This document shows positions 28,116 to 55,668 of a stretch of 64,000 nucleotides of DNA, one piece after another. Made by a program: the position numbers and the translations under genes. Origin of the DNA: Gephyromycinifex aptenodytis (GTDB lineage: Bacteria > Actinomycetota > Actinomycetes > Actinomycetales > Dermatophilaceae); assembly GCF_012277275.1 (NCBI RefSeq), contig NZ_CP051155.1, positions 496,001-560,000 on the forward strand, in the 5' to 3' direction. Each line of letters opens with the position of its first letter. Within the stretch, counting starts at the first letter, position 1. A model generated the notes under the pieces. It was given only the letters and a program-made list of their open reading frames with translations, did no database searches and was not told the origin of the DNA.

Positions 28116-29096
28116 TCAGGCGTCGAGCATGTCTTCGGTGAGGTTTGCTTCCGTCCCGGGGATGCCGAGTTCGGCCGCGCGCTTGTCCGCCATGGCCAAC
28201 AAACGGCGAATCCGACCGGCGACGGCATCCTTGGTCATCGGCACCTCGGCAAGTGCGCCGAGCTCCTCCAGACTGGCCTGCCGGTGCTCCAGACGAAGCT
28301 CTCCGGCGACCCGCAGGTGCTCGGGGACGTCCTCACCCAGGATCTCCAGCGCGCGCTGCACCCGCGCCCCGGCTGCCACTGCTGCCCGCGCCGATCGGCG
28401 CAGGTTGGCGTCGTCGAAGTTGGCCAGCCGGTTGGCGGTGGCGCGCACCTCGCGACGCACGCGGCGCTCCTCCCAGGCCAGCACCGCGTCATGCGCGCCC
28501 AGTCGAGTGAGCATGGCGCCGATGGCGTCCCCGTCGCGGATGACGACGCGGTCTACGCCGCGAACCTCGCGCGCCTTGGCCGACAGCTCCAACCGGCGGG
28601 CGGCGCCCACCAGCGCCAGTGCCACCTCGGGGCCGGGGCAGGTGACTTCCATCGAGCAGGATCGACCCGGTTCGGTGAGGGATCCGTGGGCCAGGAAGGC
28701 ACCCCTCCATGCCGCCTCGGCATCGCACACAGCCCCGTTGACCACGCGCGGTGGCAGACCTCGGACAGGTCGGCCCCGCAGATCCACAAGGCCGGTCTGG
28801 CGCGCCAGTGCCTCGCCGTCCTGGGTGACGCGCACGACATAACGGCTGGTGCGGCGCAACCCGCCCGCGGCCAGCACCATGAGGTCGGAGGGTTGGCCGT
28901 ACATGTCCTGGATGTGGGCGCGCAGGCGGCGGGCGGCGGCTGCGGTATCGAGTTCGGCCTCCACGACGATGCGTCCGCCCACTATGTGCAGGCCGCCGGC
29001 GAAGCGCAGCATCGACGACACCTCGGCCTTGCGGCAGCACGGCCTGGTCACATTCAGACGGCTCAGCTCGTCCTTCACCCTTGCGGTCATCGCCAT
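28116..29096 (-). CDS. whiA: WhiA, sporulation/cell-division regulator
   Basis: 326 residues from ATG 29096 ([17 protein letters not shown] 29090 is also possible). WhiA has an N-terminal LAGLIDADG homing-endonuclease-like domain and a C-terminal helix-turn-helix (about residues 240-310, [27 protein letters not shown]) and controls growth and division genes. The early cysteine pair ([20 protein letters not shown]) is family-typical. It completes the conserved uvrC-rapZ-yvcK-whiA-gap order. Confidence 0.95.
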
Positions 29097-29170
29097 AGGC
29101 CTATCCTGCCGCATCCTTGGCGCGAACCGGGCAGCGGCCGAATTCCCTTGCGGGCAAAGGAACTGGCTGC

Positions 29171-30109
29171 CTAGCCGAAGATGTCGCGGTATGCGGCCGC
29201 CAGCCGCAGCGCATCATGACGCCCCGGGTGATCCGGCTGCGAAACCTCGGCGAGCACGACCTCGGCCCCCAGTCGGGCAGCCGAGCGTTCCAGACGTTTC
29301 CGGTCGTCGACGACCTGCGGGTCCGCGAGCACCACATCCAGATGCAGGTCGGGCGCGTGAGCCCGCAAGGACTCCAGGTGGCGCTCAGCCGAATACCCCT
29401 GAGTCTCGGTGGTGTGCATCTCCAAGTTGAGCGTGAGCAGCCGCCTGCCCGGGGTGTTCTGCAAAGCCAGGTTCAGCTCCGGCACCAGAAGATGCGGCAT
29501 GACGGAGGTGAACCAGGATCCCGGGCCCAGGACCACCCATTCGGCCTCGCTGATGGCGCTCAAGGCGTCTGGGCAGGCCGGCGGCTCGGCAGGGTCTAGC
29601 CGCACCGAGAGCACTTCACCGCGGGTCGTGGCGACGGCGACCTGGCCACGCACCACTTCCACCTCGTTGGGCCGCTCCGGACGCAGGCCTTTGACCTCGG
29701 CGGTGATCGCCAACGGGACCGAGGCCATCGGCAGCACCCGGCCGCGGGCGCCGAGCAGGCGGCCGACCATCTCCAGACCGGGCACGGTGTCTCCTAACAG
29801 GTCCCACAGGCCCAGGATCAGCAGGTTGCCCAAGGCGTGCCCGCCGAGCTCGCCGTTGCCGGGAAAGCGGTGCTGCAGGACGTCTCGCCACAGATGTCCC
29901 CATTCGGAGTCGTCGCACAGGGCCGCCAACGCCATCCGTAGATCCCCGGGCGGGAGCACGTCGTACTGCTCTCGCAGGCGACCGCTGGATCCGCCGTCGT
30001 CGGCCACGGTGACGATGGCCGTCACGTTCTCGGTGAGCAGCCGCAGCGAGGACAGGGAAGCCGCCAGACCGTGGCCTCCCCCCAGCGCGACGACCGGGCG
30101 CGAGATCAC
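29171..30109 (-). CDS. yvcK: YvcK-type gluconeogenesis factor (CofD-like, UDP-sugar binding)
   Basis: 312 residues. The N-terminal [18 protein letters not shown] and [13 protein letters not shown] match the YvcK/CofD family, whose members bind UDP-GlcNAc-type sugars and control carbon flow to peptidoglycan. [12 protein letters not shown] and [12 protein letters not shown] are also typical. The start GTG 30109 overlaps the rapZ stop (GTGA), so the two are translated together. Confidence 0.93.
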
Positions 30110-30981
30110 TCGCGCCCCAAGTCGCGGTGGAAGAGCAAGGTTGCGATGGCATCGGTGTCCAAGCGCTTGGCGAGTTGCTCGGCAACGGCCACGGACCGGT
30201 GTTTACCGCCGGTGCAGCCGACGGCGATGGTGATGTAGCGCCGCCCTTCCTGCAGATACCCGGCCAGCATCGGCTCCATCAGGTCGAGGGCGCGTTCGAT
30301 GAACTCTTGCGCCTCCGGCTTGGACAACACGTAAGCAGCTACCTGCGGGTCCCGCCCGGTGAAGGGGCGCAACTCGGGAATCCAATACGGGTTGGGCAGA
30401 AACCGCATGTCGAAGACGATGTCCGCGTCCAGCGGCACCCCGTACTTGAAGCCGAAGGACACGATGGCGATCCGCAACCGGGTAGAGGCTCCCCCGCCCA
30501 ACATCTGGCGCACCTTGGCTGTGAGCTGGTGCACGTTCAGACCGGAGGTGTCCACCAGCAGGTCGGCGTCGGAACGCAGGTCGGCGAGCATGGCCCGCTC
30601 CTGCTGGATGCCGTCGAGCAGGCGCCCATCGCCCTGCAACGGGTGCGGGCGGCGTACACTCTCGAACCGGCGCACCAACGACTCGTCGTTGGCATCGACG
30701 AAAATCACCCGCGGTGCGTGCCCGGCAGCATGTAGGTCGGCCAAGGCCTGGGTGAAGGCGGCGAAGAAACCACGACTACGCACGTCGACCACGGCGGCCA
30801 GCCGCGGCACCCCGCCGTGTTCACGGGCGAGTTCGGCGAGGTGGACCAGCATGGCCGGCGGCAGGTTGTCCACCACGTACCAACCGAGGTCCTCCATCGC
30901 GTGGACGGCCGTGCTGCGGCCTGCGCCGCTCATGCCCGTGAGAACGACGAACTCGTCATTCTCGGGGCTGTGCTCGCTCAT
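30106..30981 (-). CDS. rapZ: RapZ/YvcJ-type nucleotide-binding protein
   Basis: 291 residues from ATG 30981 (MSEHSPENDEFVVLTGMSGAG), with AGGAG upstream; the frame extends upstream into uvrC without similarity. Walker A is GMSGAGRST (Arg for Lys, as I recall for actinobacterial members). Further motifs are DNLPPAMLVHL, FVDANDESLVRRFESVRRPHPL, FGFKYGVPLDADIVFDMRFLPNPY and the C-terminal IAVGCTGGKHRSVAVAEQLA. In E. coli RapZ controls GlmS via small RNAs; here the role is unknown but probably linked to cell-wall precursor control with YvcK. Confidence 0.94.
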   Translation of the reverse strand: MSEHSPENDEFVVLTGMSGAGRSTAVHAMEDLGWYVVDNLPPAMLVHLAELAREHGGVPRLAAVVDVRSRGFFAAFTQALADLHAAGHAPRVIFVDANDESLVRRFESVRRPHPLQGDGRLLDGIQQERAMLADLRSDADLLVDTSGLNVHQLTAKVRQMLGGGASTRLRIAIVSFGFKYGVPLDADIVFDMRFLPNPYWIPELRPFTGRDPQVAAYVLSKPEAQEFIERALDLMEPMLAGYLQEGRRYITIAVGCTGGKHRSVAVAEQLAKRLDTDAIATLLFHRDLGRE

Positions 30982-31057
30982 GGCTTCGCTCCTGTCGCTG
31001 CCTGGAACGGGCGATGCCCGCCTACCTTGCACCCATCGTGCACCCCCGTGCCGTGTT

Positions 31058-33091
31058 TCACTCCCGAACCTCCCCTGTTGCGGGGTCGACCGCGATCGGA
31101 GCCTGTTCTGCGGCGAGACGGTCGTGCACAGTCTGGGCGAGTGCGGGGCCGATTCCCGGGACCGCAATCAACTCTTCGACCGATGCGGCCCGCATCTTCT
31201 TCACCGAGCCGAATTGTTTGAGGAGAGCGGCTCGGCGGGCCGGGCCCAAGCCTGGGACCTCGTCCAAAACGCTGAGCGTCATTGCCTTACTGCGTCGCTG
31301 GCGGTGGAAGGTGATGGCGAAGCGGTGCGCCTCGTCTCGCAGCCGTTGCAGTAGGAACAAACCTTCGCTGCTGCGCGGCAGGATGACCGGGAAGTCCTCA
31401 CCGGGCACCCACACCTCCTCCAACCGCTTTGCGAGCCCGACGACGGCGACGTCCTGCACCCCCACCGCCTGCAGGGCGGCGCTGGCGGCGTTCACCTGCG
31501 GAAGCCCGCCATCGACGACGACAAGCTGGGGCGGATAGGCGAAGCGCTGCGGACGCCCGGTGCGCGGGTCGATGCCGAGTGGAACCTCCACCTCACCGGA
31601 GCCGGCCTCCGGCGAGGGCTGTTCGGCGTCGGCGAGGTGTCGCCGGAAGCGCCTGGTGAGCACCTCGTGCATGGCGGCGGTGTCGTCCACTCGAATCTCA
31701 CCCTCGGCCGAGCTCGCGGTGGCGCTCGCCTCCGTTGCTGCGGCGCCGACCTTGCCCGTCTCACCGCGGATGATGAACCGGCGGTAGTCGGACTTGCGCG
31801 GCAGCCCGTCCTCGAACACCACCATCGAGGCGACGACGTTGGTGCCCTGCACATGCGAGACGTCGTAACACTCGATCCGAAGCGGCGCCTCCGGCAGGCC
31901 CAGTGCCTCCTGCAGCTCCGAGAGTGCCTGTCCGCGGGCTGTCAGATCGCCTGCTCGGCTCACCTTGTGCCGGGCCAGGGACTGTTCGGCGTTGCGACGC
32001 ACAGTCTCGGCGAGCGCTTTCTTGTCTCCGCGCTGGGGTACCCGCACATCGACGGCCGAGCCGCGTCGCTTGCTCAACCACGCCGAGACGGTGTCCAGGT
32101 CGGGTGGGAGTACCGGCAGCAGTACCTCGCGGGGCACCGCTTCGCCTGATTCACCGCCGTACACGCCGATGAGGAGTTGCTCGATCAAGGCGGAGTCGTC
32201 TTCCCCGGAGGCCGTGGCGCGATCCAGCACCCAGCCTCGTTGCCCGCGGATCCGCCCGCCACGGACGTGGAAGACCTGGACGGCCGCCTCCAGTTCGTCA
32301 CCGGCCAGCGCGAACACGTCGGCGTCGGTGGCATCCGGGAGCACCACTGCGCTGCGTTCCAGCGCCTTCTGCAGGGCCCCCAGGTCGTCTCGCAGCCGAG
32401 CGGCCCGTTCGAAGTCCAATTCACTCGCAGCGGCCTTCATCGCCCGCTCCAACCGGGCCACGAATCGGCCCGTTTGACCCGCCATGAAATCGCAGAACTC
32501 CTCGGCGATCGCACGATGTTGGGACTCATCCACCCGACCCACACACGGCGCAGAACACTTGTCGATGTAGCCCAACAAGCACGGCCGCCCCGATTGCTGA
32601 GCGCGGTTGAACACGCCCTTACTGCAGGTGCGTATCGGGAAGACCCGCAGCAACAGATCGAGCGTCTCTCGGATCGCCCAGGCGTGGGTGTACGGCCCGA
32701 AATAGCGCGTTCCGGCTCGTTTACTGCCGCGCAGGACCATGGCGCGGGGAAAGGCTTCCCCCATGGTCACGGCCAGATAGGGGTAGGACTTGTCGTCGCG
32801 ATATTTGACGTTGAAACGCGGGTCGTACTCCTTGATCCAGGAGTACTCCAGTTGCAGGGCCTCAACCTCGGTGCTCACCACCGTCCACTCCACCCGGGAG
32901 GCGGCAAAGACCATCCGGCGGGTGCGTGGGTGCAGGTGGGCTACGTCTTGGAAGTAGGAAGAGAGCCGGGACCGAAGCGACTTGGCCTTGCCCACATAGA
33001 TGACCCGCCCCTGCTGATCCAGGAAACGGTAGACACCCGGATCGGTCGGGATCTCCCCTGGGCGAGGTCGGTACGTCGAGGGATCAGCCAC
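31058..33091 (-). CDS. uvrC: Excinuclease ABC subunit C
   Basis: 677 residues. It makes both incisions in nucleotide excision repair. The GIY-YIG nuclease is at residues ~15-95 ([21 protein letters not shown]), the zinc-less cysteine group near residues 150-180, the UVR helix around residue 205-235 ([18 protein letters not shown]), the RNase H-like second nuclease in the middle ([24 protein letters not shown]) and a C-terminal helix-hairpin-helix ([19 protein letters not shown]). GTG 33091 starts 6 nt after a -10 element, so the mRNA is probably leaderless and damage-induced (see promoter at 33098-33120). Confidence 0.96.
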
Positions 33092-33097
33092 GACGCA

Positions 33098-33120
33098 ACC
33101 CTAGACGTGCCCACCGACAA
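33098..33120 (-). promoter_or_regulatory. RecA-independent DNA-damage (RecA-NDp/PafBC type) promoter of uvrC
   Basis: TTGTCGGTG, exactly 8 nt, then TAGGGT: a full match to the mycobacterial RecA-NDp consensus TTGTCRGTG-N8-TANNNT, known to be activated by PafBC. The uvrC GTG lies 6 nt further on. Confidence 0.85.
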
Positions 33121-33173: not shown

Positions 33174-33605
33174 TCAGGCTGGGGACGGAGTGGCTGTGGG
33201 TGCAAGGGAATCGAGGCCACGCGGGGAGGGCCCGGCCTTGACCGCGCCGGTAGCCGGATCGAAGACACTGCCGTGCAGGACGCAGACCAGGTCCCCGGTG
33301 TCGGGGTCGACGCGACTGACGCGACCGTTCGCGTGGTGGCACACATCAGAGAAGACCTTGTAGTCACCGGCTGTCGGCTGGGTCACGACCGCCTTGACGT
33401 CCTCGAGGAAGGCGGCGCCGCCGACCGGGACCTCGCCCGCAGCCACCGCAGCATCCGCAGCGGCCCGGATCTGTTCGATATCGACCTCTGTGGCGGGGCT
33501 GCTTTCTCCGCGCGAAGAGCAACCGGCGACGACGGTCAGCGTGGCCACGACCCCGGCCGCCTTGAGCAGCACTCGACGGTTGACCACTGGAGAGACATCG
33601 CCCAT
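33174..33605 (-). CDS. Tat-exported Rieske [2Fe-2S] lipoprotein, copy 1
   Basis: 143 residues. The N-terminus has a twin-arginine signal (VNRRVLLKAAG) and a lipobox (TVVAGC), so a folded protein is exported and lipid-anchored outside the membrane. The Rieske ligands are CHHANGRV and CVLHGSVFD with 16 residues between; the extra disulfide cysteines of bc1 Rieske proteins are missing. The C-terminal tail is Pro/Thr/Ala-rich. The electron partner is unknown. It is a tandem paralogue of the gene at 33694-34122. ATG 33605 has GAGGT upstream. Confidence 0.88.
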   Translation of the reverse strand: MGDVSPVVNRRVLLKAAGVVATLTVVAGCSSRGESSPATEVDIEQIRAAADAAVAAGEVPVGGAAFLEDVKAVVTQPTAGDYKVFSDVCHHANGRVSRVDPDTGDLVCVLHGSVFDPATGAVKAGPSPRGLDSLAPTATPSPA

Positions 33606-33693
33606 TACCTGGACCTCTTTCTACGTCACGTATCGAATATCGCGGCCGGTGGCGCCGATCGGCAGCCGGCCGAGGAGGAGCGCTCGAGGTCGC

Positions 33694-34122
33694 TCAGCCG
33701 GTGCTTCCGCTCACCGGTACCTCCACCGGGGTCAGTCCGGTTGAGGCTGGACCCACCTCGGCTGCGCCCGTGGCCGGGTTGAACTGGCTGCCGTGCAGGG
33801 CACACACCAGGCGCCCAGTTCCTTTGTCGACGATAGATACTCGGCCGTTCTGGTGCGGGCACACGTCGGAGAAGACCCGGTAATCGCCCTTCGTCGGTTG
33901 AGTGACGACCACGCCTGCGTCGCTGAGGAACTGTGCGCCTCCGACGGGGACCGTTCCGGCGCTGACCGCCTTCTCGACCGCGGCGCGCACTTCTGCGGTG
34001 TCAATCGGCGCAGCAGCGCTGTCGTTTCCTTGCCCCCCGCAACCGGCCAGGAAGGTCACGGTCACGGCGGCGCCTGCCACCTTGAGGACCATTCGGCGAC
34101 TGGGTGCCTTGTTCTGCTCCAT
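33694..34122 (-). CDS. Tat-exported Rieske [2Fe-2S] lipoprotein, copy 2
   Basis: 142 residues from ATG 34122, which has AAGGAG 9 bp upstream; a TTG seven codons earlier is less likely. Tat motif SRRMVLKVAG, lipobox TFLAGC, Rieske ligands CPHQNGRV and CALHGSQFN. The body (VPVGGAQFLSDAGVVVTQPTKGDYRVFSDVC, in parts) is clearly related to copy 1, so the pair arose by duplication. A candidate -10 TAGAGT lies at 34180-34185. The two genes sit between uvrC and uvrA with no visible functional link to repair. Confidence 0.88.
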   Translation of the reverse strand: MEQNKAPSRRMVLKVAGAAVTVTFLAGCGGQGNDSAAAPIDTAEVRAAVEKAVSAGTVPVGGAQFLSDAGVVVTQPTKGDYRVFSDVCPHQNGRVSIVDKGTGRLVCALHGSQFNPATGAAEVGPASTGLTPVEVPVSGSTG

Positions 34123-34198
34123 CACGTTCGGCTCCTTCGCCAAGGATCGGCCGCTCCGGGCGTAGTGGAGCGTCCTGTCACTCTATTGCTTCGACTCC

Positions 34199-34272: not shown

Positions 34273-37200
34273 TCAGGAACGTTTCGCTGCCGCTGCGGCC
34301 TTGCGGGACCGCTTCGGGGGCGCGGCCGCCTTCTTACCGGCCTTAGCGGCCCGCGCCGCGCGCGGATCGAGCACGGCCGCGGCCGGTGCACCTACCTGCG
34401 GCACATGGTCGGCCCGCTGCAGCACCGGCCCGAGGTAGCGGCCGGTGTGACTGGCAGGGTCGGCCGCAATATCCTCCGGGGTTCCGATGCTCACCACGCG
34501 GCCGCCGCCACTGCCACCCTCCGGGCCCATGTCGATGACCCAGTCGGCGTTCTTGATCACGTCAAGGTTGTGCTCGATGACGATGACGGTGTTGCCCTTG
34601 TCGACCAGCCCTTGCAGGACCGCGAGCAGCTTGCGGATGTCCTCGAAGTGCAGTCCGGTCGTGGGCTCGTCCAGGACGTACACCGACCGGCCGCTGCTGC
34701 GTTTCTGCAACTCTGTGGCGAGCTTGACCCGTTGGGCCTCCCCGCCGGAGAGGGTGGTGGCGGGCTGCCCAAGGCGCACATAGCCCAAGCCCACGTCGTT
34801 CAGGGTGCGCATGTGGCGTGCGATCGCCGGGACCGCCGCGAAGAAGTCGGCCGCCTCCTCGATGGGCATGTCCAGAACCTCAGCGATGGTCTTGCCCTTG
34901 AAACGCACCTCTAAGGTCTCGCGGTTATAGCGCGCGCCGTGGCAGACCTCGCAGGGGACGTACACGTCCGGCAGGAAGTTCATCTCGATCTTCAAGGTCC
35001 CGTCGCCGGAACAGGCGTCGCACCTGCCGCCCTTGACGTTGAAGGAGAACCGACCCGGCTGGTAGCCGCGTATCTTCGCCTCGGTCGTCTCGGCGAACAG
35101 GCGACGGACGTGGTCGAAGACGCCGGTGTAGGTGGCCGCGTTGGAGCGCGGCGTACGCCCGATCGGGCTTTGGTCGACGTGGATGACCTTGTCGAGGTGC
35201 TCCAGCCCGGTGACGGTCTTGTGCCGTCCGGGGACCCGGCGTGCCCCGTTGAGTTTGTTCGCCAGCACGTTGTACAGGATGTCGTTGACCAGGGTGGATT
35301 TGCCTGAACCTGACACGCCGGTCACGGCGACCAGGGTGCCCAGGGGGAAGCTGACATCGACTCCGTCCAGGTTGTTCTGGCGGGCCCCGAAGACTTTCAG
35401 CTGCCGCTGCGGGTCGACTCCCCTGCGCTGCTGCGGGACAGGAATGCTCGCCCGTCCCGCCAGATAGGCGCCGGTCAGGGAGTCCTTGTTCTTCAGTAAC
35501 CCCTCCAGCGAGCCCGAATGCACCACGGCACCGCCGTGTTCGCCCGCGCCAGGGCCGATGTCGACGATCCAATCGGCCGAGTGGATGGTGTCTTCGTCGT
35601 GCTCAACCACGATGAGGGTGTTTCCCAGGTCCCGCAGCCGCGTCAGGGTTCCGATGAGCCGATGGTTGTCGCGCTGGTGGAGACCGATGGACGGCTCGTC
35701 CAGCACATACAGGACGCCGACCAGGCCGGAACCGATCTGGGTGGCCAGCCGGATGCGTTGGGCCTCACCGCCGGAGAGGGTGCCCGCCGGGCGATCCATC
35801 GAGAGGTACTCCAGGCCGACGTCGAGCAGGAAACCCAGACGCATCTCGATCTCTTTGACGACCCGCTCGGCGATCGCCGCTTCACGGGAGGTCAGCTCCA
35901 CCTCCTTGAGGAAGCGCGCGCATTCCCCGATGGACAGGGCACACACCTGCGCGATGTTGCGCCCGCCCAGCAGCACCGCCAACGATTCGGGTTTCAGCCG
36001 TGCACCCTTGCACGCCGGGCAGGGGATCTCGCGCATGTATCCCTCGTACCGCTCGCGCGAGGAGTCCGAGTCAGTCTCGGCGTGCCGGCGACGCACGTAA
36101 GGGATGACTCCTTCGAAGCCGGTGGAGTACTGACGATCCCGCCCCCACCGGTTGCGGTACTTGACGTGCACCTTGTGCTTGTGACCTTCGAGGATGGCGG
36201 TCTTGGCCCGTTGCGGCAGGGAGTGCCAGGGCTGGTCCAAGGTGAAGGTGAGGTCTTCGGCGAGCGCGGTCAGTACCCGCAGAAAGTAGTCAGCCACGCC
36301 GGTGGACTGCGACCACGGGGCGATGGCGCCTTCGCGAATTGAGAGGTCCTCATCGGGAATGACCAGTTCGGAGTCCACCTCCAGCTCGGTGCCGATACCG
36401 GTACAGACCGGGCAGGCGCCGAAGGGGCTGTTGAACGAGAACGATCGCGGCTCGATCTCATCGACGTTCAGCGGGTGCTCATTGGGACAGGCCATCTTCT
36501 CCGAGAAGCGCCGCTCGGAGGGTAGTGCGCGCGGGTCTTCGGCCAACTGTTCCGGGGTCGGGTCCTCAGCGATATCGACGAAGTCGATGAGCACGACTCC
36601 CCCAGCCAGCCCCAAGGCGGTCTCGACCGAGTCGGTCAACCGCTGTTTGGCCGATGCGTCCCCGCCCTTGGCGACCAACCGGTCGACGACCACTTCGATG
36701 GTGTGTTTCTTCTGCTTCTCCAGCGTGGGGGGCTGCGCGAGCGAGATGACTTCGCCATCCACCCGCGCTCGGGCGAAGCCCTTGCTCTGGAGTTCGGCGA
36801 AGAGGTCGACGTACTCTCCCTTGCGCCCTCGCACCAACGGTGCCAACACCTGAAAGCGGGTTCTCTCCGGCAATTCCAGCAGTCGATCCACGATCTGTTG
36901 GGGGCTCTGCCGAGTGATCGGTTCCCCGCAGGTGGGGCAGTGCGGTCTGCCGGCGCGAGCGTAGAGCAGCCGCAGATAGTCGTAGACCTCGGTGATCGTC
37001 CCCACCGTTGAGCGCGGGTTGCGGCTGGTGGACTTCTGGTCGATGGAGACCGCAGGCGACAACCCCTCGATGAAGTCGACATCCGGTGGGTCCATCTGCC
37101 CGAGGAACTGGCGGGCGTAGGCCGAGAGCGACTCGACGTAACGACGTTGCCCCTCCGCGAAGATCGTGTCGAAGGCCAGGGAGGATTTACCCGATCCGGA

Positions 37201-37332
37201 CAGGCCGGTGAACACGACGAGCGAATCACGCGGGATGTCGATCGAGACGTCTTTGAGATTGTGCTCGCGGGCGCCTCGAACGATGAGTCGGTCGCGGAGT
37301 CGGGAGAGGTCGGTGCCGGTCGGTGATGCCAC
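34273..37332 (-). CDS. uvrA: Excinuclease ABC subunit A
   Basis: 1019 residues from GTG 37332 ([26 protein letters not shown]). It is the damage-sensing ATPase of nucleotide excision repair. Two ABC modules are visible: Walker [10 protein letters not shown] and GVSGSGKST, signatures [15 protein letters not shown] and [15 protein letters not shown], Walker [13 protein letters not shown] and [12 protein letters not shown]. Zinc modules include [25 protein letters not shown] and CDACSGDG. The last ~45 residues are Ala/Lys-rich. The start is fixed by TACGAT 7 nt upstream, part of a DNA-damage promoter; ATG 37341 is the weaker alternative. Confidence 0.97.
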
Positions 37333-37339
37333 GCGGCAC

Positions 37340-37362
37340 ATCGTAGGTGCCACCCCTGACAA
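37340..37362 (-). promoter_or_regulatory. RecA-NDp/PafBC-type promoter of uvrA
   Basis: TTGTCAGGG, 8 nt, TACGAT; one mismatch (G for T) to TTGTCRGTG-N8-TANNNT. GTG 37332 follows after 7 nt, implying a leaderless mRNA. Confidence 0.78.
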
Positions 37363-37486: not shown

Positions 37487-38146
37487 ATGACCTATACCGG
37501 GCACGTCACCTCCGCTGGGCCCAGCCAGGTTCGTCAACTCGACGGCCTGACGATCCGTAAGGCAAGCGTGGGGTCGATGGACAACAACGCCTATCTGCTC
37601 ACCTGCACCGCCACCGGCGATCAATTGCTCATCGACGCCGCAGACGACCTGCCCCGCCTGCAGCAACTCATCGCAGAGGGCACTGGGGAATTGAGCGCAA
37701 TCCTCACCACCCACCGGCACGCTGATCACACTCGGGCGTTGACCGGCCTGGCCCAGGCAACCGGTGCCACCACTCTGGCCGGCGAATACGACGCTGATTA
37801 TCTACCGATGGCCCCCGATCGTCGACTCCGCCACGGGGAGCAGATCACCCTGGGTGAACAGCAATTGCATATCACCCATCTGCGCGGGCACACCCCGGGC
37901 GCCATCGCGGTGACATGGACCGCGCCTAACGGACAGGCGCACCTGTTCAGCGGCGACAGTCTGTTCCCCGGGGGTCCCGGCAAGACCTCCACCCCTGAAG
38001 ACTTCGCCCAACTCATGGACGATCTAGAGACCCGCCTCTTCGATGTCCTGGACGACGCCACCTGGGTCTATCCCGGCCACGGGGACGACACCACCCTGGG
38101 CGCTGAACGTCCGCACCTCCCGCAGTGGCGCGAACGCGGTTGGTAG
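37487..38146 (+). CDS. MBL-fold metallo-hydrolase (glyoxalase II-like)
   Basis: 219 residues from ATG 37487, with AAGGAG 4-9 bp upstream. The metallo-beta-lactamase fold is clear: [15 protein letters not shown], the metal motif [17 protein letters not shown] with the third His, [11 protein letters not shown] with the bridging Asp, and YPGHGDDT. It probably hydrolyses a thioester or a related small ester; the substrate cannot be told. It is divergent from uvrA, with 154 bp between the starts. Confidence 0.88.
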
Positions 38147-41988: not shown

Positions 41989-44076
<2,088 letters not shown>

Positions 44077-44083
44077 AGCGACC

Positions 44084-44106
44084 ACGGTAGACCTGACCTC
44101 CGACAA
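44084..44106 (-). promoter_or_regulatory. RecA-NDp/PafBC-type promoter of uvrB
   Basis: TTGTCGGAG, 8 nt, TACCGT; one mismatch (A for T) to the consensus TTGTCRGTG-N8-TANNNT, with ATG 44076 after 7 nt. Confidence 0.78.
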
Positions 44107-52968: not shown

Positions 52969-55638
52969 TCAGTGTTCGGCGTCCTGCCAGGAGCGACCGG
53001 TCCCGATGTTGACCTCGAGGGGTACGGCAAGGTCAGCGGCGGCACCCATGCGGTCGCGCACGAGGTCGGTGACGGTCTCGAGCTCACCCGGCGCGACCTC
53101 GAGGACGAGTTCGTCGTGTACCTGCAGCAGCACTCGCGACGCGAGCCCGGCCTCGCGCAGTCCCGCGTCGACGCCGAGCATAGCGATCTTGATGATGTCG
53201 GCTGCCGAGCCCTGGATGGGGGCGTTGAGCGCCATCCGTTCAGCCATGTCGCGGCGCTGTCGGTTGCCGGAATCGAGGTCGGGCAGGTAACGGCGGCGGC
53301 CGAACATCGTCTCGGTGTAGCCCACTGCGCGAGCATCGGCGACGATCTGCTGCAGATAGTCACGCACTCCCCCGAACCGCAGGAAGTATTCGTCCATGAG
53401 GCCCTTGGCTTCGGCGGTGCTGATTGCCAACTGCTTGGACAGCCCATACGCGGACAACCCGTACGCCAGCCCGTAGGACATCGCCTTGACCTTGCTTCGC
53501 ATCGCCGGGGTGACCTCACCCGGTTCGACGCCGAACACCTTGGAGCCGACGAATCGGTGCAGGTCCTCCCCGCTTTGGTAGGCCTCGATGAGCCCCTCGT
53601 CACCCGAGAGGTGAGCCATGATCCGCATCTCGATCTGGCTGTAGTCGGCCGACATGAGCGTCTCGTAACCCGAGCCCACCACGAAGACCGACCGGATACG
53701 ACGCCCTTCATCGGTGCGGATCGGGATGTTCTGCAGGTTGGGATCCGTGGAGGATAGCCGACCGGTGGCCGCGATGGTCTGCTGGTAGGTCGTGTGGATG
53801 CGCCCGTCGTCGGCAACCGACTTGATCAGTCCCTCGACGGTGACCCGAAGGCGGCTCGCGTCCCGGTGCCGCAGCAGCGCCTCCAGGAAGGGATGTTCGG
53901 TCTTGGCGTACAGGTCGCCCAGCGCATCGGCATCCGTGGTGTAGCCGGTCTTGGTGCGCTTGGTCTTGGGCATCGAGAGCTCGTCGAAGAGCACCACCTG
54001 CAACTGTTTGGGCGAACCGAGGTTGACCTCATGACCGATCGCGGCGAAGGCGTCGGCTTGCGCTTGCCCGACCTGGTCGGCGAAATGGCCTTCCAGATGT
54101 TGCAGGGCCTCAGCATCGGCCGCGATTCCCACCCGCTCCATCCGGGCCAGGACTTCTGTCAGGGGTAGTTCGATGTCGCGCAGCAGCTCAGCCCCGTTGG
54201 ACTTCTGGACGTCTTCATCGAGTGCCGCCGAGAGGTCGAGGACGGCTTGGGCGCGGCTCATCGATGTTTGTGCCTGGATCGACCCGCCTTCGCAACCGAG
54301 AGCAAGATCCAGGGTGCCCTGGCCTTGCTGTTGGGAGGCCGGCGTCAGTTCGCGGCGCAGGTGGCGCATCGCCAAGTCCGCCAAGTCGTAACTGCGCTGA
54401 TCAGGACGGGCTAGATAGGCGGCCAGCGCCGTGTCCGAGACGATGCCGTGCACCTGCCATCCCCGCTCCGCTGCGGACTGCACCTGACGTTTGGCATCGT
54501 GCAGCGCCTTCGGGCGTTGCGGGTCGGCCAACCAGTCGGCAAGGGCCCGCTCGTCCGCGGTGTCCATGTCGGCGACGGCGATGTAGGCGCCCTGTCCATC
54601 GACTGCAATCGACACCGATTCCACGTCGCCGGTGCCCCGCGCCCAGGTGCCGACGATCTCGACACCGCTACGCCCCGAGGAATGCTCCTGCAGCCACGCC
54701 TGGACCTGGCCCGGTTCCAGCACCTGACCCTCGACGGCGACCGCCCCCTCGGCCTCAGGCTCTGGGGCCTCCAGAGTGCTGAACAGCCGGTCCCGCAGGA
54801 TTCGGAACTCCAGGCCGTCGAAGACCCGGTGCACCTCGTCGCGATCCCAGCTCACGCGCTCCAGGTCATCGACGCTGTGCGGTAGCGGCACATCCAGGAC
54901 CAGCGCGTTGAGACGGCGGTTGCGCAGCACTGAATCCAGGTGGGCGCGCAGCGATTCGCCCGCTTTGCCTTTGATCTGGTCGACGTGGGCGACGACCCCG
55001 GTCAGGTCGCCGTACTGCCCCAGCCACTTGGCTGCCGTCTTGGGCCCGACACCGGGCACCCCGGGCAAGTTGTCAGAGGCTTCACCGACCAGTGCTGCCA
55101 GATCGGGGTAGCGCTCGGGAAGAACGCCGTACTTGGCCTCGACGGCACTGGGGGTCATGCGGCTGAGTTCCGAGACCCCCTTGACGGGGTAGAGCAGCGT
55201 CACTCGTTCGTCGACCAGTTGCAGGGCGTCTCGGTCACCGGAGACGACGAGCACTTCCATCCCCTGCTGGGCGGCCTGGGTCGACAGCGTGGCCAGGATG
55301 TCGTCTGCTTCGTACCCGTCCAGCTCCAGATGGGTGATCCGCAGCGCGTCCAGCACCTCTTTGAGCAACGAAACCTGACCGCGGAACTCATCCGGTGTCG
55401 TGGCCCGGCCGGCCTTGTATTCGGCGTACTCCTCGGTGCGGAATGTCTGGCGAGAGACGTCGAAGGCGACGGCCAAGTGGGTCGGCTGCTCATCACGCAA
55501 CAGGTTGATGAGCATGGCAGTAAACCCGTAGACCGCGTTCGTCGTCTGCCCGGTGCTCGTCGAGAAGTTCTCGGCAGGCAGGGCGAAGAAGGCGCGATAG
55601 GCCAGCGAGTGTCCGTCGAGGAGAAGAAGTCGGCTCAC
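52969..55638 (-). CDS. polA: DNA polymerase I
   Basis: 889 residues. The N-terminal 5'-nuclease domain (residues ~1-300) has LLLLDGHSLAYRAFFALP, VVSGDRDALQLV and GVPGVGPKTAAKWL. The middle 3'-5' exonuclease fold lacks the metal-binding acidic residues (no DTET-like motif), so proofreading is probably absent, as in mycobacteria. The polymerase domain has motif A MSADYSQIEMRIMAHLSGD, motif B YGLAYGLSAYGLSKQL and motif C LLQVHDELVLE. GTG 55638 is supported by TAGGCT 7 nt upstream within a damage-type promoter. It acts in gap filling, including after UvrABC excision. Confidence 0.96.
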   Translation of the reverse strand: MSRLLLLDGHSLAYRAFFALPAENFSTSTGQTTNAVYGFTAMLINLLRDEQPTHLAVAFDVSRQTFRTEEYAEYKAGRATTPDEFRGQVSLLKEVLDALRITHLELDGYEADDILATLSTQAAQQGMEVLVVSGDRDALQLVDERVTLLYPVKGVSELSRMTPSAVEAKYGVLPERYPDLAALVGEASDNLPGVPGVGPKTAAKWLGQYGDLTGVVAHVDQIKGKAGESLRAHLDSVLRNRRLNALVLDVPLPHSVDDLERVSWDRDEVHRVFDGLEFRILRDRLFSTLEAPEPEAEGAVAVEGQVLEPGQVQAWLQEHSSGRSGVEIVGTWARGTGDVESVSIAVDGQGAYIAVADMDTADERALADWLADPQRPKALHDAKRQVQSAAERGWQVHGIVSDTALAAYLARPDQRSYDLADLAMRHLRRELTPASQQQGQGTLDLALGCEGGSIQAQTSMSRAQAVLDLSAALDEDVQKSNGAELLRDIELPLTEVLARMERVGIAADAEALQHLEGHFADQVGQAQADAFAAIGHEVNLGSPKQLQVVLFDELSMPKTKRTKTGYTTDADALGDLYAKTEHPFLEALLRHRDASRLRVTVEGLIKSVADDGRIHTTYQQTIAATGRLSSTDPNLQNIPIRTDEGRRIRSVFVVGSGYETLMSADYSQIEMRIMAHLSGDEGLIEAYQSGEDLHRFVGSKVFGVEPGEVTPAMRSKVKAMSYGLAYGLSAYGLSKQLAISTAEAKGLMDEYFLRFGGVRDYLQQIVADARAVGYTETMFGRRRYLPDLDSGNRQRRDMAERMALNAPIQGSAADIIKIAMLGVDAGLREAGLASRVLLQVHDELVLEVAPGELETVTDLVRDRMGAAADLAVPLEVNIGTGRSWQDAEH

Positions 55639-55645
55639 GCATGGC

Positions 55646-55668
55646 AGCCTAGGCCCAGCTACTGACAG
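55646..55668 (-). promoter_or_regulatory. RecA-NDp/PafBC-like promoter of polA
   Basis: CTGTCAGTA, 8 nt, TAGGCT; seven of nine bases match TTGTCRGTG, spacing and -10 are exact, and GTG 55638 follows after 7 nt. It is weaker than the uvrABC sites. Confidence 0.6.

Follow-up and report, generated by a model that had tools for sequence, protein, structure and literature searches.

The closest known counterpart of the promoters considered here is found in mycobacteria where, according to the portions of the literature cited, the RecA-NDp (P1) motif constitutes the target of PafBC, a regulator encoded beside the proteasome genes (PMC8223512, PMC6789036). As summarized in part of a review, UvrABC lies within the PafBC regulon of M. 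smegmatis, and recA, uvrA and uvrC of this species are under both the PafBC and the LexA regulons (PMC8223512). With regard to mechanism, excerpts of recent work indicate that single-stranded DNA binds PafBC and that PafBC acts by sigma adaptation (PMC11804915, Sci Adv 2025), and published complexes likewise show sigma adaptation to be its mode of action at the promoters it controls (PMC11804915, PMC10936776). The promoter type, the regulator and the membership of UvrABC are, as far as these partial sources go, already known for mycobacteria (PMC8223512, PMC6789036, PMC5656591).

Further relevant descriptions, again drawn from excerpts, come from other actinobacteria. Specifically, Streptomyces RecA-NDp promoters have been reported upstream of recA and of SCO6735, a UV-inducible macrodomain gene (PMC5087735), and in a LexA study of S. 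venezuelae (2022) an initial search suggested a lack of conservation of the M. smegmatis PafBC motif in that species (PMC9380542). Finally, leaderless (TA-led) actinobacterial genes are described as having TANNNT some 12 bp ahead of the start codon (PMC3160421).

Promoters of uvrC, uvrA, uvrB and polA

The window, by which is meant the whole stretch of DNA analysed, is 64 kb in length. It was searched with the mycobacterial RecA-NDp consensus TTGTCRGTG-N8-TANNNT, the letters being those of the preliminary description; this consensus reportedly originated with Gamulin 2004. The claim that uvrC carries a full-consensus RecA-NDp promoter, with its GTG 6 nt further on, was borne out exactly: the promoter reads TTGTCGGTG GGCACGTC TAGGGT, is followed by TGCGTC and then by the GTG at 33091-33089 (Table 1), and the exact 23-mer, present a single time in the window, is not produced by any of 100 dinucleotide shuffles. 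Genome-wide, the full 23-mer is found 5 times at 0 mismatches and 29 times at up to one mismatch, as compared with 5 matches at up to one mismatch for the reversed pattern. Looser forms of the 23-mer were set aside: three mismatches proved too permissive within the window (59 matches versus 32.4 expected by chance), and two mismatches genome-wide were left unused (263 versus 116 in the control).

The genes uvrA, uvrB and polA had been placed with uvrC in one PafBC regulon, and core matches are indeed present at all three. Four matches to the core TGTCR-N11-TANNNT are present in the window, at uvrC, uvrA, uvrB and polA only, while the shuffled window contains a mean of 0.88 and only 1 of 100 shuffles reached four; the -10 box ends 6 nt before the start codon at uvrC and 7 nt before it at the other three genes. 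The list of open reading frames (ORFs) starts uvrA upstream at 37488 and uvrB at a TTG at 44106, and on the basis of the -10 geometry at these two genes the true starts are proposed to lie downstream of the listed ones. For uvrB, 19 of 28 loci from the order align from query residue 1.

Table 1. Features of the window, with window coordinates
Feature	Position	Strand	Remarks
RecA-NDp / PafBC-type promoter of uvrC, TTGTCGGTG-N8-TAGGGT	33098..33120	-	0 mismatches to RecA-NDp consensus
uvrC	31058..33091	-	GTG start 6 nt past -10 box; NCBIfam NF001824, 1079 bits
uvrA promoter, TTGTCAGGG-N8-TACGAT	37340..37362	-	1 mismatch
uvrA	34273..37332	-	proposed GTG start 7 nt past -10 box, by geometry; NF001503, 1565 bits (longer ORF)
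uvrB promoter, TTGTCGGAG-N8-TACCGT	44084..44106	-	1 mismatch
uvrB	41989..44076	-	proposed ATG start 7 nt past -10 box, by geometry; NF003673, 1073 bits (longer ORF)
polA promoter, CTGTCAGTA-N8-TAGGCT	55646..55668	-	2 mismatches to full consensus, 0 to core
polA	52969..55638	-	GTG start 7 nt past -10 box; NF004397, 1054 bits
rapZ	30106..31032	-	first gene downstream of uvrC; Pfam PF03668, PF22740; GTG start chosen by position
yvcK/CofD-like gene	29171..30109	-	overlaps rapZ end; Pfam PF01933
whiA	28116..29114	-	Pfam PF10298, PF14527, PF02650

The genes that follow uvrC are widely retained: tblastn places rapZ, yvcK and whiA downstream of it and in the same orientation in 77, 78 and 76 of 80 relatives, respectively (the best 80 of 578), and rapZ is probably carried on the uvrC transcript. 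Should all three genes share that transcript, DNA damage would be expected to raise WhiA as well. Between uvrA and uvrC, at 33174-34143 on the minus strand, lie two similar ORFs in tandem, of 143 and 149 aa, whose starts resemble those of lipoproteins and which, as judged by eye, show a Rieske-like CxH...CxxHG pattern.

PafBC, LexA and the genome-wide set of sites

Both pafB and pafC, whose absence from the genome had been named in the preliminary description as grounds against its reading, are present, and they lie next to the proteasome genes as had been anticipated. The PafC HTH domain (PF19187) has a single match in the genome (3.45 Mb, one contig), with an E-value of 7.7e-43, and pafB and pafC are separate genes with WYL and WCX domains at G000:C1:429105-431161, in a 20-kb stretch that also holds genes for an FKBP protein, for the Pup ligase PafA and for two subunits of the proteasome. 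PafB and PafC have matches to three solved chains, 6sj9, 7p5x and 9fnd (E 3e-53 to 9e-60), of which 6sj9 is A. aurescens PafBC and 7p5x is named PafBC in the excerpted sources (PMC6789036, PMC10936776).

The excision-repair genes had also been claimed to answer to PafBC rather than to LexA. The LexA box consensus is TCGAAC-N4-GTTCGA, and this pattern was scanned upstream of start codons at up to three mismatches. No LexA-like box was found within 800 nt upstream of uvrA, uvrB, uvrC or polA at that threshold, the closest upstream matches lying at 1552 nt (uvrC), 1627 nt (uvrA), 848 nt (uvrB) and 3922 nt (polA); a match with three mismatches falls within the uvrA coding region at 37276-37291. 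LexA control of these genes was rejected on motif grounds only, there being no box within that distance upstream. The claim thus stands as to the lack of a LexA box near the genes, and its exclusion of LexA is to be read as a statement about boxes, from whose absence it is drawn.

Elsewhere in the genome, the LexA core at up to one mismatch is found 276 times versus 99 in the control, per strand (the core is palindromic), and at least eight perfect cores exist, one of them upstream of recA. At recA, assigned by eye (G000:C1 754644-754746, L152/L338), a PafBC-type site lies downstream of this perfect-core LexA box. At G000:C1 184946-184989 (L331/L004), a perfect LexA core comes no more than 9 nt after a PafBC-type site, the ORF behind the pair has a SAV_6107-like HEPN domain, and the site is possibly under dual PafBC/LexA control.

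A genome-wide scan for enrichment at repair genes, which had been suggested as a check, gave a positive result. The strict pattern TGTCRG-N10-TANNNT has 26 sites in the genome versus 3 for the reversed control, and at 15 of the 26 an ATG or GTG follows at a gap of 6-7 nt, an arrangement termed here the leaderless form. Behind 11 of these 15 lie repair or recombination genes, namely recN, a DEDD exonuclease gene, a recQ-like helicase gene, uvrC, uvrA, uvrB, polA, an alkB-like 2OG-Fe oxygenase gene, xth, recR and radA; the other four, without a clear repair role, are a 54-aa ORF, an ABC ATPase gene, a Kiwa-like gene and a penicillin-binding protein gene. Among the remaining 11 strict sites, which lack the leaderless form, are those of recA (by eye; start candidates 62-77 nt past the -10 box) and of an sbcD-like gene (35 nt), the other nine having no repair assignment. 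A looser form, with one letter freer and gaps of 5-8 nt, gives 20 rows representing 19 distinct sites (L145 being the same site as L144 and counted once) versus 2 in the control, and ligA, mshC and a UvrD-like helicase gene, whose matches are weaker, likewise start 6-7 nt after a -10-like box.

The Kiwa-like gene belongs to a pair (L140, G000:C1:2208012-2211042) in which a KwaA-like gene (982-1503, minus) and a KwaB-like gene (20-1012, minus) stand directly behind the leaderless PafBC-type promoter. PADLOC matches are E 2.8e-20 for KwaA and 1.3e-13 for KwaB, both below the NCBIfam cut-offs. Such an arrangement would place phage defence under DNA-damage control.

Leaderless geometry and its conservation

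Transcription usually begins 6-7 nt past the last base of the -10 box, and in a leaderless gene the distance from the end of this box to the start codon is some 6-9 nt, too short for a Shine-Dalgarno site to be transcribed. The gaps of the four window genes (6, 7, 7 and 7 nt) fall within this spacing. With the -10 box ending 6-7 nt ahead of it, the start codon itself is the expected point of transcription initiation, and these promoters should give leaderless mRNAs from the predicted starts, a point missing from the preliminary description. The nucleotide just before the start codon is a pyrimidine at 15 of 15 sites in the genome itself, at 34 of 35 in genomes G062 and G139 together, at 26 of 29 uvrB/polA sites of relatives and at 57 of 72 uvrC/uvrA sites of relatives (the remainder being 13 G and 2 A), versus 47% for any RTG; the resulting pyrimidine-purine step is as expected for transcription starting on the codon.

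A published link between PafBC or RecA-NDp promoters and leaderless mRNA was not found in the excerpted texts of PMC7790235, PMC10936776, PMC2897130 and PMC3968373, nor do the corresponding parts of two papers on leaderless genes (PMC3898074, PMC3160421) tie uvr genes or DNA repair to such genes; coverage of leaderless genes together with DNA damage extended to parts of PMC13388538, PMC3062782 and PMC2897130. As far as this search reaches, with Gamulin 2004, Mueller 2018 and Mueller 2021 outside its scope, the leaderless geometry of PafBC promoters is unreported.

Conservation was followed at uvrC in the best 80 of 578 relatives, which are named loci, mostly from Micrococcales with a few from Streptomyces, Nocardioides and others (908,555 bases). 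In these 80 loci the two halves TGTCRG and TANNNT occur 81 times at a spacing of 10, no other spacing from 0 to 30 accounts for more than two occurrences, and twelve permuted cores at spacing 10 occur 0 or 1 times. An RTG follows at a gap of 6-7 nt in 72 of the 81 sites. Of the same 81, 39 lie at uvrC, all with this gap, and 42 lie elsewhere; among the latter, 33 have an RTG at 6-7 nt and four at 8 nt, and each of these 37 opens an ORF whose first 80 residues contain the UvrA signature GAREHNL, leaving five sites without assignment. At uvrC itself, a site with at most one core mismatch and a gap of 6-7 nt is present in 57 of the 80 best relatives and absent in 23, and control gaps gave 0 of 80; as the pattern was fixed for the phylum search after earlier matches had been seen, these uvrC counts are not independent of that choice. 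Fairer tests of the pattern are the reversed control, other genes and other genomes.

The order sample for uvrB and polA comprised 29 genomes, the genome itself included, with uvrB loci anchored by position and with weak or paralogue matches and unfetched rows left out (uvrB L239, L240 and one row; polA L268-L270 and further rows). Sites with 0-1 core mismatches and a gap of 6-7 nt are present in 22 of 28 uvrB loci (17 exact; 6 without) and 20 of 27 polA loci (14 exact; 7 without), and control gaps for both genes gave none at up to one mismatch, though three times as many were tried. As a promoter, that of uvrC is unexceptional within a known class, and its leaderless geometry is strongly conserved.

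The wider sample consisted of 198 genomes of the phylum. PF19187 at its default cut-off gives a match in 5 of 14 control genomes as compared with 1 of 14 at E 1e-10, and genomes were therefore scored as PafC-bearing at E-values up to 1e-10. Within the class, 470 leaderless sites were counted versus 4 in the control, with at least 11 in each of 17 of 17 genomes (the genome itself, at 15 versus 0, included). Outside the class, counts were 259 versus 26 in 91 PafC-bearing genomes and 87 versus 41 in 90 genomes without a PafC match (Mann-Whitney p 1e-6, the genomes not being independent). At least five leaderless sites are found in 37 of 108 PafC-bearing genomes versus 3 of 90 without a PafC match, one of the three being 86% complete; fewer than five are found in the other 71 PafC-bearing genomes (71/108), so that PafC alone does not predict sites.

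Seven of the 17 class genomes represent one genus and are assigned to Streptomyces, given that the best uvrC piece of each shows 83-92% DNA identity with Streptomyces sp. MMG1533. Each holds 23 to 48 leaderless sites, with 0 in the control, and nine Streptomyces uvrC loci (the seven, L103 and L123) all show at most one core mismatch and a gap of 6-7 nt, three being exact. In a sample without S. venezuelae, these counts speak against non-conservation of the motif for Streptomyces generally.

Sites were examined singly in four genomes (15 of 15 in G062, 20 of 23 in G139, 20 of 22 in G038 and 30 of 39 in the Streptomyces-assigned G023). By BLAST against the set of the genome itself, the 30 sites of G023 gave four matches, uvrB, radA, a recQ-like gene (34%) and an ABC protein gene, and the 20 of G038 gave three, uvrB, polA and radA. 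Several side observations were made. Other G023 sites resemble dnaX, primase and exonuclease VII by eye. The ORFs behind leaderless sites L304, L306, L308, L310, L317 and L318 (G038), and behind L178 and L180 (G062), are alike by eye within each genome, L178 being assigned to DUF222 by Pfam. In both G062 (L185, by Pfam) and G139 (L205, by eye), a leaderless PafBC-type site precedes a gene resembling that for dihydrodipicolinate synthase, and a Cas3 HD-domain/helicase protein is encoded behind another such site in G062 (L188).

Interpretation and comparison with known systems

Judged by motif, regulator and geometry, the uvrC site is very probably a PafBC-dependent (RecA-NDp) promoter, with transcription predicted from the GTG or ATG and a leaderless mRNA as the product; PafBC control of the excision genes in the window is well supported at the level of sequence. 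We infer PafBC binding, induction by damage and the real mRNA start at uvrC. The mechanism is carried over by homology from the published system: on the model of M. smegmatis, damage would generate single-stranded DNA that binds the WYL domains of PafB-PafC, the activated heterodimer would bind TGTCRGTG upstream of the -10 box, and PafBC would enable polymerase with the housekeeping sigma-A to work from a promoter that lacks a normal -35. Transcription would then begin on the purine of the GTG or ATG, giving a leaderless uvrC mRNA that may extend into rapZ, yvcK and whiA. The same leaderless module would serve the others of the eleven repair genes listed above, and recA and the sbcD-like gene would keep a leader.

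Other readings of these data carry different weight. That the sites are a few degenerate matches arising by chance in a GC-rich genome has negligible probability: the motif does have free positions, and about half of its window matches at up to three mismatches are expected by chance (59 versus 32.4), but the exact site appears in 0 of 100 shuffles, the spacing peak is 81 versus at most 2 in the best 80 of 578 loci, and the class holds 470 sites versus 4. On shuffles, spacing peak and class counts this reading was rejected. It is very unlikely that the promoters, while genuinely of the damage type, depend on another activator such as ClgR with PafBC incidental. ClgR was once proposed for the RecA-independent mycobacterial promoter (Wang 2011, as relayed in part of PMC5656591), and three of 90 genomes without a PafC match hold at least five sites; against this, site number tracks PafC (37 of 108 PafC-bearing genomes versus those 3 of 90, in related genomes for which the test is not independent), and excerpts describing the published complexes have PafBC acting by sigma adaptation at its promoters (PMC11804915, PMC10936776).

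The meaning of the spacing is a separate matter. We give an even chance to the view, compatible with a PafBC-dependent leaderless promoter at uvrC, that the geometry is a by-product of compact actinobacterial promoters without meaning for the damage response. Leaderless genes make up more than 20% in Actinobacteria according to the excerpted source (PMC3160421), and two likely targets, recA and the sbcD-like gene, have leaders; yet the leaderless share here (15 of 26) and near uvrA and uvrC (72 of 81, in the best 80 of 578 loci) is above that background, and the 6-7 nt spacing holds for orthologues across an order. The high share and the order-wide spacing support conservation, and not yet function. 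Beyond the PafBC-dependent promoter itself, a broader proposal is tentative and to our minds somewhat doubtful: that the PafBC regulon of the class, Streptomyces included, is leaderless by design, that repair proteins are thereby kept flowing when leader-dependent translation is poor, and that some lineages have wired in phage defence (here through the Kiwa-like pair) and the operon of rapZ, yvcK and whiA. In practical terms, a search of raw DNA of the class with TGTCRG-N10-TANNNT-N6/7-RTG brings up candidates for the damage regulon with very little background. The two-part pattern also indicates where uvrA, uvrB and polA start, leads to the prediction of a PafBC regulon in Streptomyces, and makes it possible to test whether leaderless translation benefits genes that damage induces.

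Compared with the mycobacterial PafBC regulon, the system described here is alike in its motif, in the position of PafBC by the proteasome genes, in having UvrABC as targets and in that some genes are also under LexA; it is unlike it in that no LexA box lies near uvrA or uvrC and in that 15 of 26 strict sites stand 6-7 nt from a start codon, an arrangement not found described. The promoter type is that of the Streptomyces recA and SCO6735 RecA-NDp promoters. As in the LexA/SOS regulon, a damage response is concerned, and recA here has a perfect-core LexA box, but unlike members of that regulon the excision genes of the window have no LexA-like box within 800 nt upstream. Finally, like TA-led leaderless genes of Actinobacteria, these genes carry TANNNT close before the start codon; unlike TA-led genes, which the excerpted source does not tie to a damage regulon (PMC3160421), they are set apart by a TGTCRG 10 bp from the -10 box that marks one regulon.
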